Positions 28,224-36,692 of a stretch of DNA of 64,000 nucleotides are shown piece by piece. Positions within the stretch are counted from its first letter, which is position 1. Each line of letters opens with the position of its first letter. A program made the position numbers and the translations under genes. A model generated the notes under the pieces. The model worked only from the letters and a program-made list of their open reading frames with translations, was not told the DNA's origin and searched no databases. The DNA is from Methanothrix sp. Its GTDB lineage: Archaea > Halobacteriota > Methanosarcinia > Methanotrichales > Methanotrichaceae. The stretch spans positions 1 through 64,000 of the forward strand of contig NZ_JASFYM010000008.1 of NCBI RefSeq assembly GCF_030055635.1. Reading direction: 5' to 3'.

Positions 28224-28247
28224 CGACGAAAGTCGGATATAGACCTC

Positions 28248-28317
28248 GGCAAAAGTCGATTATCATTACAATCTCCCTCCTTTACCCTACATCCAATCGA
28301 CTTTTGCTCTCTTCTCA
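28248..28317 (+). ncRNA. Predicted small RNA, copy 2, with anti-SD loop
   Basis: Begins 25 nt after the TATA box with GGCAAAAGTCGATT, which pairs perfectly over 13 bp with AATCGACTTTTGC ending at 28307. The 33-nt loop holds CTCCCTCC and CCTACATCC. A pyrimidine tail (TCTCTTCTC) follows. Copy 1 differs at the loop-proximal stem pairs, yet the pairing is kept in both. The loop could pair with GGAGG ribosome sites. No protein frame fits. Expression is inferred. Confidence 0.58.
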
Positions 28318-28929
28318 ATCACCTTGCTTTCATATGTGCAGCGGACTGCGGCCAAGATCGTCGAACACCATCTCTAGTTGGGTGCGGACTCCTTATCATT
28401 GAGACGGATGCTCTTATCCATATGATGACCTGCCAGATTATGCAGTGGTCCTGCTATGCGTTATTGGAAAATGAATGTGCGATTCCAGCGACCTGCTTGC
28501 TTGACCTCTAAGTTGCTGAACACACAAGAGCGGAGACTGAAAATGCTCACCCGTTCAGATCCTCAGAGTATCTGTTTGTGGGTGTCGATCCCACCAGAAT
28601 CATTCGGTAATCTGAGCCCATGACCAGATTTCTGACGGACTGTTCTAACAGACCCAATCTTTCAGAGCCGAGACTGTTCCCCTGAAGACATAGACGCCCG
28701 TAAACAGACAGGAGCGTTTACAGCAGAATCTGAACACTGTGTGCTTTCATTCATACCTGACGCATCTGACATAGATGACATCTACATGAGATATAGATGA
28801 AACATAAAGATATAAGGAGAACCAACACACGCTTCACTGGCGCGGGTAAGAGAGTGGGATTATCCAAGCGTCCTCCATACCTCCTGTAGGATGCGGGGGA
28901 GGCACCCTCCCCTCCCTCGCGACATCTCC
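28318..28929. other. Gene-free stretch with one C element
   Basis: Over 600 bp without a gene; it holds the C element at 28409-28532. Near 28890-28920 GGGGGAGG and CCTCCCC form a GC hairpin at the 3' end of the minus-strand gene, a possible transcript end. The rest shows nothing I can support. Confidence 0.5.
28409..28532 (+). mobile_element. Family C miniature element, copy 1
   Basis: 124 bp bounded by TGCTCTTATCC and ACAAGAGCG, the C-family inverted ends. The flanks GAGACGGA and GAGACTGA match at 7 of 8 bases, an aged 8-bp target duplication. The interior is nearly the same as the copies at 48357 and 55639. Confidence 0.82.
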
Positions 28930-30381
28930 CTATCGGCTTTTCTTCTGCACAACTCCCTTAGAGCTGATCGTGAAGCTCCCGTAAAGCCTTGTCCCGACCT
29001 CAGATCCTCTGCTCATGTATCTTAGATCTGCAATGCCCTCAATGCTTCCTCTGCTCTCAAATGTGGATCGCGTGCTTCTCATGATCCCTGTGCTGCTGAG
29101 ATTTATAAAATCTCCGTAATACCTCTCCCGCATGTAGCTCGCCAGCTTCTGGTTCTCACAGCTCCAGCTCAGCCCCCATGTGCTGTTGTAGTCTATGCTC
29201 CTCATGCTCAGGTTGAGGGTGACTGGCGAGCGGTTAGCCAGCGATTCGCCCTGAAAGACTATCGATGTCGTCGAATAATCCGTTTCCTCGGATGATGCAT
29301 AGCTCCCAGATCCATGCTCTGCGAACTCAAAAACAAATCCTGCCTGCGATCTGACCTTTGTTGTGGCCGATGCACTCCGGTTGATACCTCCACCATCGAT
29401 TCGGACGCTGTTTGTCACATAGTATGCTTCCCGCTCGGTAGACATCCTGCGGTACACCGATGCATACCCGAAGCCTGTCACCCTTCCATCGATCCCAGCG
29501 GTTGCTGATCCCCTCAGCGTCTTCACCTTCACTGTTATCTGGCCGTGCTCACCCGGCCTCAACCCCCTTATGGTCCACACATTCGTTGTCCCCGGATCCG
29601 GCGGGGGGTACGCCTCGAGAAAGAGCGTTCTCGGGTCGTAGAACTCCCGCACTACAACATCAGTGGGGACCTCAAGGTTGTTCCCGTATGTTATGGTGTA
29701 GGTGATCGTGCTTCCTGGACTGACACTGCTCTGCTTCGCCTTCTTTATGGAGTTCCTCTCCAGAGGCTCGAAGCTTATCACCTCCCCTGCTATTCTGACG
29801 TAGTCCACGTAGCAGGAGACGCCCTCATACTTCGTGGCGCCTTTGAGGCGTATGTAGACCTTTACAACATCCATCCCCCGGAGGATCTCCTGAGCATCTT
29901 CCCAGAAAACCTCCTTCCTGCTCTTCTCAGGATCCTTGCTCCTTATGCTCAGCCTCGATTCTGATGCATCGAACTCGCGCCAGCCGTTGGAATTCCCACC
30001 TGTGTCAAGCCACCTGCCATCGCTCCAGGAGGCCAGGCTGATCAGAATGCTCGCGTCGTCTGGATCGCTGCTGCTCGATTTTCCATCGTTATTTCCGTCG
30101 AGCATGACCTCCAGCTCGATGGATCCCCTGTTCGATGCCGGGTGAAGCCAGAGGTTGAGATTATCGAGAGAATCTATTCGCGTGGGGCTGATGGTTATCG
30201 GCACGCTCTTGGACGATCCTCCCGGATACACGCTTAGACGCGCGGAGTGGGTTCCATGGTAACCCATGCCTGATATCTCTGCGGCGCTTTTCTTCGATCT
30301 GGTAATGCTGTAGTCAGCGTCGGTGATCGCGCCGGCTGCGCTGACCAGCAAGAGCAACATGATTATGGATATTACTCGCAT
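28930..30381 (-). CDS. Secreted surface protein with DUF11-like domain
   Basis: A protein of about 483 residues, exported by a Sec signal peptide (VISIIMLLLLVSAAGA). ATG at 30381 is preferred; a TTG at 30396 adds five residues. Residues about 50-210 look like a lectin-like or beta-sandwich module with a calcium-type DGNNDGKSSSSDPDD loop. Residues about 220-300 resemble the DUF11/CARDB repeat (SVSPGSTITYTITYGN, then LRPGEHGQITVKVKT). There is no C-terminal membrane anchor. It is divergent from the curlin-like gene across 248 bp, and both are likely envelope proteins. Confidence 0.78.
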   Translation of the reverse strand: MRVISIIMLLLLVSAAGAITDADYSITRSKKSAAEISGMGYHGTHSARLSVYPGGSSKSVPITISPTRIDSLDNLNLWLHPASNRGSIELEVMLDGNNDGKSSSSDPDDASILISLASWSDGRWLDTGGNSNGWREFDASESRLSIRSKDPEKSRKEVFWEDAQEILRGMDVVKVYIRLKGATKYEGVSCYVDYVRIAGEVISFEPLERNSIKKAKQSSVSPGSTITYTITYGNNLEVPTDVVVREFYDPRTLFLEAYPPPDPGTTNVWTIRGLRPGEHGQITVKVKTLRGSATAGIDGRVTGFGYASVYRRMSTEREAYYVTNSVRIDGGGINRSASATTKVRSQAGFVFEFAEHGSGSYASSEETDYSTTSIVFQGESLANRSPVTLNLSMRSIDYNSTWGLSWSCENQKLASYMRERYYGDFINLSSTGIMRSTRSTFESRGSIEGIADLRYMSRGSEVGTRLYGSFTISSKGVVQKKSR

Positions 30382-30527
30382 GATTACTACTATCAACAGG
30401 AGGTACTAAAATAATTCGATTTAATTTATTAATTTATTTCCAAATATTCCGTCTGGATCTATATCAGCACCACTAACCGCATCGGGGTATACATTGAGCT
30501 GATATTGAACCTATATGAAAAATAGGA

Positions 30528-30535
30528 ATTTAAAT
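30528..30535 (+). promoter_or_regulatory. TATA box of the curlin-like gene
   Basis: ATTTAAAT after AATAGGA. The expected start of transcription, about 26 nt on, falls at 30556-30560, exactly where the structured leader begins. Confidence 0.6.
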
Positions 30536-30557: not shown

Positions 30558-30619
30558 GCGGGTTGGGGCGTGGGGGAAACTCGCCGGGCGGGGCCCCTTC
30601 CTGGGGCCCCGTAACCCGC
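30558..30619 (+). promoter_or_regulatory. Three-way-junction 5' leader of the curlin-like mRNA
   Basis: GCGGGTT at 30558 pairs with AACCCGC ending at 30619. Inside it, GGCG pairs with CGCC around a loop of about 11 nt, and GGGGCCCC pairs with a second GGGGCCCC across TTCCT. The result is a compact 62-nt three-way junction starting at the predicted first base of the transcript and ending one base before the AGGTGA ribosome site. It may control translation or protect the mRNA end. It is not a tRNA: no anticodon or T arm fits. Confidence 0.6.
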
Positions 30620-30629
30620 AGGTGATGGT

Positions 30630-31358
30630 ATGAGATACATTGCATTGATGTTGATGTTTATGATACCGCTTGCCTCCGCATATCATGGGGGCAATACCGT
30701 GTCGCAGTCCATAGACATGTCCGCATCCGGTGGCTATGTGAGCCAGAGCGCCTCGAATGCCGCGGTGGTGGTTGGCGATAACAACAATGTAAACCAGAAG
30801 ATAAGCCAGAGCGCCTCCGGGAACTACGTAACGCAGAGCGCCGCGAATGCAGCCGTTGTCATCGGCAACAGCAATACGGTCGGCCAGAGCACATCCCAGA
30901 GCGCAAATGGCAACACCATATCACAGAGCGCGGCCAATGCTGTCGCTGTGGTCGGAGACCTGAACACGGTCAACCAGCTCGTCTCACAGACCGCCAGCGG
31001 CAATGAGATATACCAGAGCGGATGGAATACGGCCACTTTAGTGGGCAACGGCAATGCACTGACCCAGCAGGTGGTCCAGACGATAAACATGCTGCCTGCA
31101 CATGTCGATCCGAGCCAGACGATGAGCAACTCCGCATACATCATGGGCAGCTACAACACCGTCGATCAGGGGCTGTACGGCACAATCCTCGCCGGCACGA
31201 ACAACGCCCCGATGTATCAGTCTGGAAGAAACTACATACAGACAAACGATCCGAGCGGCAACAGCTACAGCCAGAGGATCAGGTTCTCCGTCAGAGCAGG
31301 GCCAAGAGCTCCGGTCTCGCAGTCAGGCCAGAACGAGATACGCATCGGACCTCTCTGA
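30630..31358 (+). CDS. Secreted curlin-like repeat protein, candidate amyloid
   Basis: A 242-residue protein with a short signal peptide ending near ASAYHG. Residues about 22-150 contain imperfect repeats of 33-36 residues built on SQSAS-G-YVSQSA-NAAVVVGDNNNVNQ. They are rich in Gln, Asn, Ser and Gly, with regularly spaced Q and N as in curlin strands. Later parts are looser (MYQSGRNYIQTN, VSQSGQNEIRIG). Such repeats form stacked beta-strands that fibrillise outside the cell. The sheath of Methanothrix is a published amyloid (MspA); whether this is that protein or a relative I cannot tell. It has its own promoter and a structured leader. Confidence 0.8.
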   Translation: MRYIALMLMFMIPLASAYHGGNTVSQSIDMSASGGYVSQSASNAAVVVGDNNNVNQKISQSASGNYVTQSAANAAVVIGNSNTVGQSTSQSANGNTISQSAANAVAVVGDLNTVNQLVSQTASGNEIYQSGWNTATLVGNGNALTQQVVQTINMLPAHVDPSQTMSNSAYIMGSYNTVDQGLYGTILAGTNNAPMYQSGRNYIQTNDPSGNSYSQRIRFSVRAGPRAPVSQSGQNEIRIGPL

Positions 31359-31811: not shown

Positions 31812-32951
31812 TTATGCAGTTCTCACAATCTCCTCGTACTCGCTCGTGCTCAGATAAACAGGGGCATACTTGATGCCCCTATCCCTCAGATCCCCCACAT
31901 ACGATCGCAGATGCTTCTTCGAGCCCGCGAGAAGCCCGCTGTAGACATCGATTACCTCCTTATTACCGGTCTCAGCTATCGCTCTCTCCAGATCGATGAT
32001 GCTGATCTCCTCGAACCTCGCGGCTGCCATGAGAGCATCATGATCTGAGGATGCTTTGGAGAGCAATTCATCATGAACCCTCTGCAGAGTCTGATTATCA
32101 AAAATGCCTATTTCCAGAACAGGCGTCTCCACTCCGTATCTATCCATGAGAGCTCCGATCTGATCTATGTGGCTCTGCTCAGACCTGACAAGATCCAGGA
32201 AGACCGTCAGGCCTGTCCTCTCATAAAGCGATCCGTAGAGATCACGGGCTGCCTTCTCCTCCTTCCAGATGAAGAGCATCCACTCGATATCGTTCTCGGT
32301 CAGGTTCTGTGAGATCTGATGTGCAGGGCTCTGGGGCCTTCCCAGATATATCATGCCCTCGCCGTATGCGATGTTGTGCTTTACACCTGGATCCATGCTA
32401 TCGGACATCGCCCAGATTATCGATACGCTCTGCTCAGGTCTCAGTACTTTGTCGAAGCGATCTCCGGTCTCGAGCTTTCTCCTGAACTCCACAACGGTGT
32501 GTGCGCCGTAGCTCCTGCCGCCATGCTCAAGTATGTCGTATGTGCCACCGAGCATTGTATCATCGATATGCGGGCCGTAGTTGCCTGTAGAATATTCATC
32601 AAGCACTCTCACGCTCCCGTTGACAAACGCCATCACCATATCCGCGTCCTTCATCCACTCAGAGGGCTCAAAGCCGATGGCGAGCCATCCTCGAGTGCTT
32701 CCATTTAAGGCCATGTAGAGATGCTCATCATCTATCTTCCATGATACCGTCATCACTCCACCGGTGTAACCCTGCCTGGGAGTGCTGTAGAGCTTTAGAT
32801 GGTGCGAGTACTCATTCACACCCACAACGCCGTCGGGCCGCCATTCCTCCGAGACGGCGCTTTCTGCAACAACCTGAGGCTCCTCTGGCTGTATGCATCC
32901 TGAAAAGAGGAGCAGCGCCAAGACCAGAAGCACAATCTCATCGCGTATCAT
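31812..32951 (-). CDS. Lipoprotein with DOMON and DUF2202 ferritin-like domains
   Basis: A 379-residue protein. Lipoprotein signal with LLFSGC lipobox (Cys near 19). Residues about 40-200 form a DOMON-type domain (WKIDDEHLYMALNGSTRGWLAIGF and later SIIWAMSDSMDP), a fold that binds heme or sugar. Residues about 220-370 match DUF2202, a ferritin-like four-helix bundle: WKEEKAARDLY, SEQSHIDQI, ARFEEISIIDLE and SKKHLRSY supply Glu/His ligands for a di-iron site. A surface-anchored protein joining a possible heme module with a di-iron module suggests redox work outside the cell. The partner is unknown. Confidence 0.85.
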   Translation of the reverse strand: MIRDEIVLLVLALLLFSGCIQPEEPQVVAESAVSEEWRPDGVVGVNEYSHHLKLYSTPRQGYTGGVMTVSWKIDDEHLYMALNGSTRGWLAIGFEPSEWMKDADMVMAFVNGSVRVLDEYSTGNYGPHIDDTMLGGTYDILEHGGRSYGAHTVVEFRRKLETGDRFDKVLRPEQSVSIIWAMSDSMDPGVKHNIAYGEGMIYLGRPQSPAHQISQNLTENDIEWMLFIWKEEKAARDLYGSLYERTGLTVFLDLVRSEQSHIDQIGALMDRYGVETPVLEIGIFDNQTLQRVHDELLSKASSDHDALMAAARFEEISIIDLERAIAETGNKEVIDVYSGLLAGSKKHLRSYVGDLRDRGIKYAPVYLSTSEYEEIVRTA

Positions 32952-35780: not shown

Positions 35781-36692
35781 ATGAATGTTGGAGTTATAGG
35801 CGTCGGCTCGATGGGTCGCAACCACGTGCGCGTCTACTCCGAGCTGAAGGGCGTGGAGAACCTCTACGTCTACGATTCTGTGGAGAAAAATGCAGAGGCT
35901 GCGAGGGAGTTTGCAACGATATGCCACAGCATCGATGAGCTTCTAGATGCATCAGAGGCTGTCTCCATCTGTGTCCCCACCAGGTATCATTACGATGTCG
36001 CCATGCGTGTGATCGAGGCCGGAGTACACTGTCTAATAGAGAAGCCGATGACCCTCACGCTGGATGAGGCTGAGAGGCTCCTGAGCGCAATCCGTGGGAG
36101 GGATCTGGTGGTTGGGGTCGGGCACATCGAGCGCTTCAATCCCATAGTGACAGAGATAAAGAGGATAATCAAGTCGCCCGCATATGTTGAGATAAAGAGG
36201 CACAATCCTGGATCCTCGAGGATAACAGATTCATCAGTCGTCGAGGACCTGATGATCCACGATATCGATATAGTCTTCAACGTGCTCTTTCCGGGAAGAG
36301 AGGATTACACGATAAGCAGCGCCGGCACGAGGAACGTCTGCGAAGCTCTGATAAGATTCGACTCATCGATCGTCTCCCTATCAGCGAGCCGCCTGTCATC
36401 CAAGAAGTTCAGGACTTTCTATGTAGAGGAGGAAGGAGTCACCACAGAAGGCGACTTCATGACCCAGGAGGTGTACATCTACAGAAAGCCTGATAAGTAC
36501 CTCAAGGAGGGTGAGAGGTACCTACAGGAGAACATAATCGAGAAGGTGCTCGTCAGCAAGGTGGAGCCGCTTAAGGTCGAGCTCCGGGCGTTTCTGGACG
36601 CGGTCAGGGGCAGGCAGGAGTTCCCTGTAACGCCTGAGCAGGCATTCAGAAACATGAAGGTATGCGCTGAGATATCGAGGGGGCTTGTATGA
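35781..36692 (+). CDS. WbpB-like Gfo/Idh/MocA oxidoreductase
   Basis: A 303-residue NAD-dependent sugar oxidoreductase. GVIGVGSMGRNHVRVY is the Rossmann loop, EKPMTLT carries the catalytic Lys (near residue 91), and HIERFNP and DLMIHDIDI match the family core with its HD pair. In the WbpB role it oxidises the 3-position of UDP-GlcNAc-uronate before transamination. It starts 5 nt after the aminotransferase and ends in an ATGA overlap with the acetyltransferase. Confidence 0.92.
   Translation: MNVGVIGVGSMGRNHVRVYSELKGVENLYVYDSVEKNAEAAREFATICHSIDELLDASEAVSICVPTRYHYDVAMRVIEAGVHCLIEKPMTLTLDEAERLLSAIRGRDLVVGVGHIERFNPIVTEIKRIIKSPAYVEIKRHNPGSSRITDSSVVEDLMIHDIDIVFNVLFPGREDYTISSAGTRNVCEALIRFDSSIVSLSASRLSSKKFRTFYVEEEGVTTEGDFMTQEVYIYRKPDKYLKEGERYLQENIIEKVLVSKVEPLKVELRAFLDAVRGRQEFPVTPEQAFRNMKVCAEISRGLV

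Follow-up and report, generated by a model that had tools for sequence, protein, structure and literature searches.

A conserved structured 5' leader of Methanothrix as a candidate docking site for a small RNA of Methanosarcinia

Methanosarcinia are a large group of methane-cycling archaea, and to our knowledge few archaeal small RNAs (sRNAs) have known targets. Pairing between hairpins is familiar from the plasmids ColE1 (RNAI/RNAII) and R1 (CopA/CopT), whose cis-encoded, overlapping antisense RNAs form kissing hairpins with complementary loops and with arms that can be extended to a duplex. Bacterial stabiliser leaders of the ompA type place a strong stem at the 5' end of the mRNA and leave the ribosome site free. 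In Methanosarcina mazei, sRNA162 acts both in trans and in cis, pairs with mRNA 5' regions and masks the ribosome site; it is 191 nt long, pairs through a single-stranded linker and has homologs only in two close Methanosarcina relatives (PMC3510493). M. mazei sRNA154 has an NrpR operator in its promoter and is under nitrogen control (PMC3177094); of its two loops one is anti-ribosome-site, and it stabilises some mRNAs and represses another (PMC3177094, PMC5867862). A third sRNA of M. mazei, sRNA41, represses its targets by masking ribosome binding sites (reviewed in PMC5867862).

The leader described here would, in our best reading of the sequence, work like the trans-acting control exerted by these three archaeal sRNAs. 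It lies in a 64-kb stretch of a Methanothrix genome of the M. thermoacetophila clade (the window; the named relatives are Methanothrix). Methanotrichaceae relatives carry the arbitrary genus labels g1 to g11, g1 being the window's own genus. The gene behind the leader (30630-31358, + strand, ATG at 30630) encodes a secreted repeat protein of 242 amino acids, is present in a single copy in its genome, and is about 95 % identical in five congeners and 46-61 % identical in other Methanotrichaceae genera. The first-pass annotation called the protein curlin-like, a name based solely on the appearance of its repeats; Pfam gave no match in support of it, and PDB gave no convincing one. The sheath protein MspA was ruled out as its identity, being a different protein (Mthe_1069, 60.9 kDa; PMC10470525, PMC6242892). 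The gene downstream (31812-32951, - strand) combines DOMON and DUF2202 in an unusual pairing and may encode a surface redox or metal-binding protein.

The leader (30558-30619, + strand) is structured. In its three-way-junction form, GCGGGTT (30558-30564) and AACCCGC (30613-30619) make a closing stem around inner hairpins, with an energy of -41.9 kcal/mol. No 62-mer of the window is more stable on either strand, and none of 42,626 segments of this length (step 3, both strands; mean -14.5, sd 4.7) reached that value; two of 200 dinucleotide shuffles were equally low (z -2.6). The fold is present in six Methanothrix genomes, and its first 36 nt, which take in the unpaired loop, are identical in all six. 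The ribosome site AGGTGAT (30620-30626), upstream of the ATG, and the start codon are likewise conserved in these genomes. The fold ends at 30619, directly before the ribosome site, as had been claimed, and since AGGTGAT is outside the fold, an RNA thermometer or another sequestration of the ribosome site was rejected. A repeat or insertion element was rejected because the leader is single copy in the genome.

The stem, the hairpins and their coordinates stood as first proposed; a unique three-way topology did not. The 5' strand GCGGGUU can pair either with AACCCGC in the closing stem or with AACUCGC (30578-30584) in a hairpin A (30558-30584), a form found in other genera, and the two pairings are mutually exclusive. 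Alternative folds are close in energy: at 37 °C a different arrangement is the minimum-energy fold in two congeners (G001 and G002), and at 55 °C all congeners prefer a fold other than the three-way junction. Hairpin B (CGGGGCCCC/GGGGCCCCG, 30589-30611) varies among the six genomes yet mostly stays paired, alignment pair 37-50 being C-G, U-G or U-A in congeners and one closing pair changing from U-A to U-G. Among five distinct congener sequences 98.3 % of the cells were paired, and no covariation in excess of shuffles was found; as 19 of the 23 pairs never vary, covariation neither supports nor refutes the three-way junction. Pairing was thus kept in relatives within the genus, by invariance, while the exact architecture was largely not kept in other genera. 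The closing stem was also tried as a conserved core and discarded: similar stems can be made out by eye in G011 and G014, though not as the minimum-energy folds at 37 °C, and G015 showed no such stem. The view that the 5' leader is conserved and structured and probably exerts control over the mRNA is supported; the view that the three-way junction is the part conserved between genera is not. What sequence comparison indicates as conserved between genera is the promoter, the 5'-terminal strand and the complementarity of this strand to a nearly class-wide putative small RNA, described below as P.

With a TATA box (AATTTAAAT, 30527-30535) some 27 nt ahead of G30558, the predicted transcription start at about the first base of the fold appears reasonable. 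No transcription-start map for Methanothrix was found in literature searches. Upstream of the TATA box, a promoter element (CTATATGAAAAATA, 30511-30524) is kept across Methanotrichaceae genera, both before curlin-like genes and before stand-alone RNAs. The promoter (CTACRTGAAAAATA and TATA) and a GGCGGG-like start are retained upstream of distant curlin-like orthologs, and the spacing from TATA to GGCGGG is maintained in relatives.

When the regions downstream of this promoter motif were read across Methanotrichaceae, one element recurred: GGCGGGAUAGGAGAGUGGGA, then an arm (UCGCC or a different one) that closes a hairpin, often followed by AGACCUCCU, and last a GC-rich hairpin that often has a UCCCUCC loop. 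Its 5' motif is GGCGGGRWRGRGAGUGGG behind the same promoter. Most copies have no ORF of their own, and the next gene is convergent, ending 140-250 nt past the promoter. By position the copies fall into two groups on either side of a DUF11 gene: RNA-a lies between this gene and guaA, whereas RNA-b is divergent from DUF11 and upstream of it. From this synteny in other genera an RNA-a on the + strand just past the 3' end of the window's DUF11 gene (28930-30396, - strand, ORF as listed, later ATG starts possible) was predicted and then found. This putative stand-alone RNA gene (28839-28935, + strand), unannotated and 1.7 kb upstream of the leader, is conserved in all five congeners. It has a TATA box at about 28808-28816, a P-complementary stretch at 28842-28859, a hairpin loop GAGAGUGGGA, the sequence ACCUCCU (28879-28885), which resembles the tail of 16S rRNA, and a GC-rich hairpin. 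Further upstream, at about 28247-28309 (+ strand), there is another possible small RNA with a TATA box before it, a 13-bp stem (GCAAAAGTCGATT/AATCGACTTTTGC) and a C-rich loop (CTCCCTCC); this stretch is 92 % identical in the congener G002, and a search of the same place in the other four congeners did not find it.

The leader itself appears, from its sequence, to belong to this family of mostly stand-alone non-coding RNAs. It has the promoter of the RNA-a/RNA-b type, occupies the usual place of RNA-b beside the DUF11 gene, and shares the family layout of a GC-rich hairpin B after hairpin A. Against the motif GCGGGNNRGRGAGUGGG it reads GCGGGUUGGGGCGUGGG, with one departure (A to C). As a full-length MAFFT alignment of the family misaligned hairpin B, a sequence-only model of the 5' part was made from 19 copies from other genera. 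Over both strands of the 64 kb it ranked RNA-a first (E 0.0011) and the leader second (E 0.15), a score which is weak alone, the remaining support coming from position, promoter and structure. The ACCUCCU linker is absent from the leader, and an ORF follows it, unlike in the stand-alone genes; RNA-b copies likewise have no such linker, and some copies of the element in g2 precede other genes. In some g2 genomes (L062, L122, L120) RNA-a points at same-strand genes (DUF39-like, or for a secreted MKYC... protein), so the use of the element as a leader may have arisen more than once. Neither the leader nor the RNA-a/RNA-b and P loci matched Rfam at or above the gathering score, in agreement with the initial remark that no known riboswitch is recognisable in the leader.

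The family model also matched one or two extra loci in most family genomes. These recurrent matches of about 15 bits were considered as more RNA-a/RNA-b copies and rejected as such on account of TATA boxes located on the opposite strand, and are taken as genes of the putative sRNA P. Its predicted transcript, 5'-GAGCGGGUA...CCCCCACUCYCCUACCCGCUC-3', forms a hairpin whose 3' half is complementary to the RNA-a/RNA-b motif, and occurs as the variants P1 (CUCUCC) and P2 (CUCCCC). P, which is unannotated, has its own strong TATA box on the strand opposite to the motif in all genomes read. Among Methanosarcinia, 192 of 238 genomes have the P pattern, against very few matches of the control; the 310 other genomes searched from the phylum have none. 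The window's own genome (G000) has two P loci, P2 on contig C11 (L205) and P1 on contig C16 (L206). In many other genera a gene for an M50-type protease follows P1 at a distance of 65-210 nt, and P2 comes after a larB-like gene. Methanosarcina-like P has the form GUGAGCGGGAAACUUUUUUCACAUACCAUACCCCCCACUCCCCAUAUGACCCCCCACUCCCCAACCCGCUCACA, again behind a strong TATA box, and Methanosarcina P (GUGAGCGGG...CCCCCACUCCCCAACCCGCUCAC) is near a proton-pyrophosphatase-like gene. Literature searches did not find the P sequence.

The first 19 nt of the leader (GCGGGUUGGGGCGUGGGGG, 30558-30576), starting where the promoter would place the transcription start, are part of the family motif and a near-complement of the 3' half of P. 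Of these positions 17 are complementary to P2 of the same genome, and the leader carries two mismatches to the P RNAs of its own genome; between RNA-b (e.g. in G068) and P1 in some g2 genomes there are 18 nt of perfect complementarity. With up to three mismatches the pattern GCGGGTAGGRGAGTGGGG matched only the two P genes, RNA-a, the leader and a leader on contig C19 in the own genome; as its reversed control matched 12 times in the genome, the number of matches proves nothing by itself. In the window the leader is the best pairing site for the cores of both P RNAs. Co-folding of leader and P gave a net gain of -17 to -18 kcal/mol beyond the partners' own structures, which none of 200 shuffles reached and which persisted at 58 °C. 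In a duplex-energy control with a short piece of the leader, 6 of 300 (P2) and 18 of 300 (P1) shuffles paired equally well.

A 5' P site is also present in the curlin-like leaders of G011, G014 and G015. The leaders in G024 and G030 (g9) and in G017 and G009 (g5) have no good 5' site; they have a perfect P2 complement directly before the curlin-like start codon, of 13-14 nt in g9 and 11 nt in g5. Among 91 ORF starts in g5/g9 loci, two curlin-like starts ranked first and second in P2 complementarity (11 and 14 nt perfect). The predicted pairing is off the ribosome site in the window's genus and on it in the g5 and g9 orthologs. The partner motif has GGGGAG or GGGGUG, the form that P2 would require, in the genera in which P2 alone was found (g5, g9, g10), and mostly GGAGAG in the genera with P1. 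By our own count (three of three against two of seven genera, p ~0.08) this trans-covariation is suggestive only.

We regard it as somewhat probable that the leader is an sRNA-responsive 5' UTR on which P docks. In this reading P and RNA-a would be transcribed. P would pair with positions +1 to +19 of the mRNA and then extend into the stem, over about 17 bp; the first contact would probably be loop to loop, as each RNA forms a hairpin whose loop complements that of the other and both carry the arm GCGGGUW. The closing strand AACCCGC (30613-30619), which shares its sequence type with the 3' arm of P (WACCCGC), most likely competes with P for the 5' strand of the leader. Pairing would displace the closing stem and hairpin A and set AACCCGC free beside the ribosome site. 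Without P a stable fold would enclose the 5' end and leave the ribosome site open, favouring a stable, translated mRNA. We incline to the view that P reduces expression of the surface protein, as the P2 site covers the start region in g5 and g9, although the direction is the least certain step. The negative control to which the site in g5 and g9 points is extended to the window's genus with less confidence. Here the P site is at the 5' end and off the ribosome site, and it is not obvious how P would block translation directly. RNA-a and RNA-b would titrate P as decoys. A three-part RNA network, in which P1/P2 are a hitherto undescribed hairpin sRNA of most Methanosarcinia, RNA-a/RNA-b its dedicated decoys that evolved in Methanotrichaceae, one of them captured as the leader of a surface repeat protein, and in which RNA-a carries a copy of the 16S anti-Shine-Dalgarno tail (ACCUCCU), is as a whole a more tentative proposal, to which we give rather less than even weight.

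Like ColE1 RNAI/RNAII and R1 CopA/CopT, P and its partners are pairs of hairpins with complementary loops and arms, but they are encoded at separate chromosomal places and not in cis on a plasmid. With sRNA162 P shares pairing at the 5' region of an mRNA, predicted from sequence in the case of P; P, a short hairpin that most of the class carries, differs too much in size and range to be sRNA162 itself (PMC3510493). The nitrogen-controlled sRNA154 has an NrpR operator (PMC3177094), whereas no GGTA-N6-TACC operator was seen before Methanosarcina P. With its C-rich loops P could be sRNA41.

The strongest rival to docking of P is a plain 5'-terminal stabiliser without a partner RNA, in which the stem at +1 shields an abundant mRNA from 5'-end-dependent decay. 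The most stable fold of the window starts from the predicted +1 and keeps clear of the ribosome site, as in leaders of the ompA type, and the curlin-like ortholog leaders of other genera also begin with strong hairpins, though of different design. Unlike the ompA type, the Methanothrix leader belongs to a non-coding RNA family and has a conserved loop complementary to a putative sRNA. A pure stabiliser needs neither an invariant loop nor one that is shared with stand-alone RNAs and complementary to P, and we consider this explanation unlikely, though one to be taken seriously. That the leader is still a small RNA gene of the RNA-b type, with the mRNA arising by read-through or the small RNA being processed from the mRNA 5' end, would account for its position in the place of stand-alone RNA-b and for the shared promoter. 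The ribosome site and start conserved in six genomes, the 11 nt from the fold to the start codon and the lack of a terminator between leader and ATG make this improbable.

A metabolite-binding riboswitch is less probable still: the conserved purine-rich loop and the strand with two exclusive pairings would suit one, but neither pairing covers the ribosome site, Rfam gave no match, and the relatives are mostly free-standing RNAs without a gene. We think it equally implausible that a G/C-rich leader simply folds strongly and pairs with any C-rich RNA by chance. The leader is indeed 79 % GC with 28 G, and its shuffled versions, too, reach about -30 kcal/mol in pairing with P; against this stand the invariance in six genomes, the position at +1, the shared promoter class and the fact that two independent queries placed the leader first or second in the window.

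If docking of P holds true, P, nearly class-wide in Methanosarcinia, would together with its complementary RNA family and the mRNA leader make up a testable archaeal system of sRNA, decoy and target, open to experiment in Methanosarcina, which is tractable. The cell surface of a major methane producer would then be tied to post-transcriptional control. A possible second target of P is on contig C19 of the same genome (L058, about 36433-36560): the gene of a further secreted repeat protein there shares the promoter type of the curlin-like gene, and its leader (GAGCGGGCAGGAGAGUGACGG) is complementary to P, as is also seen in congeners.
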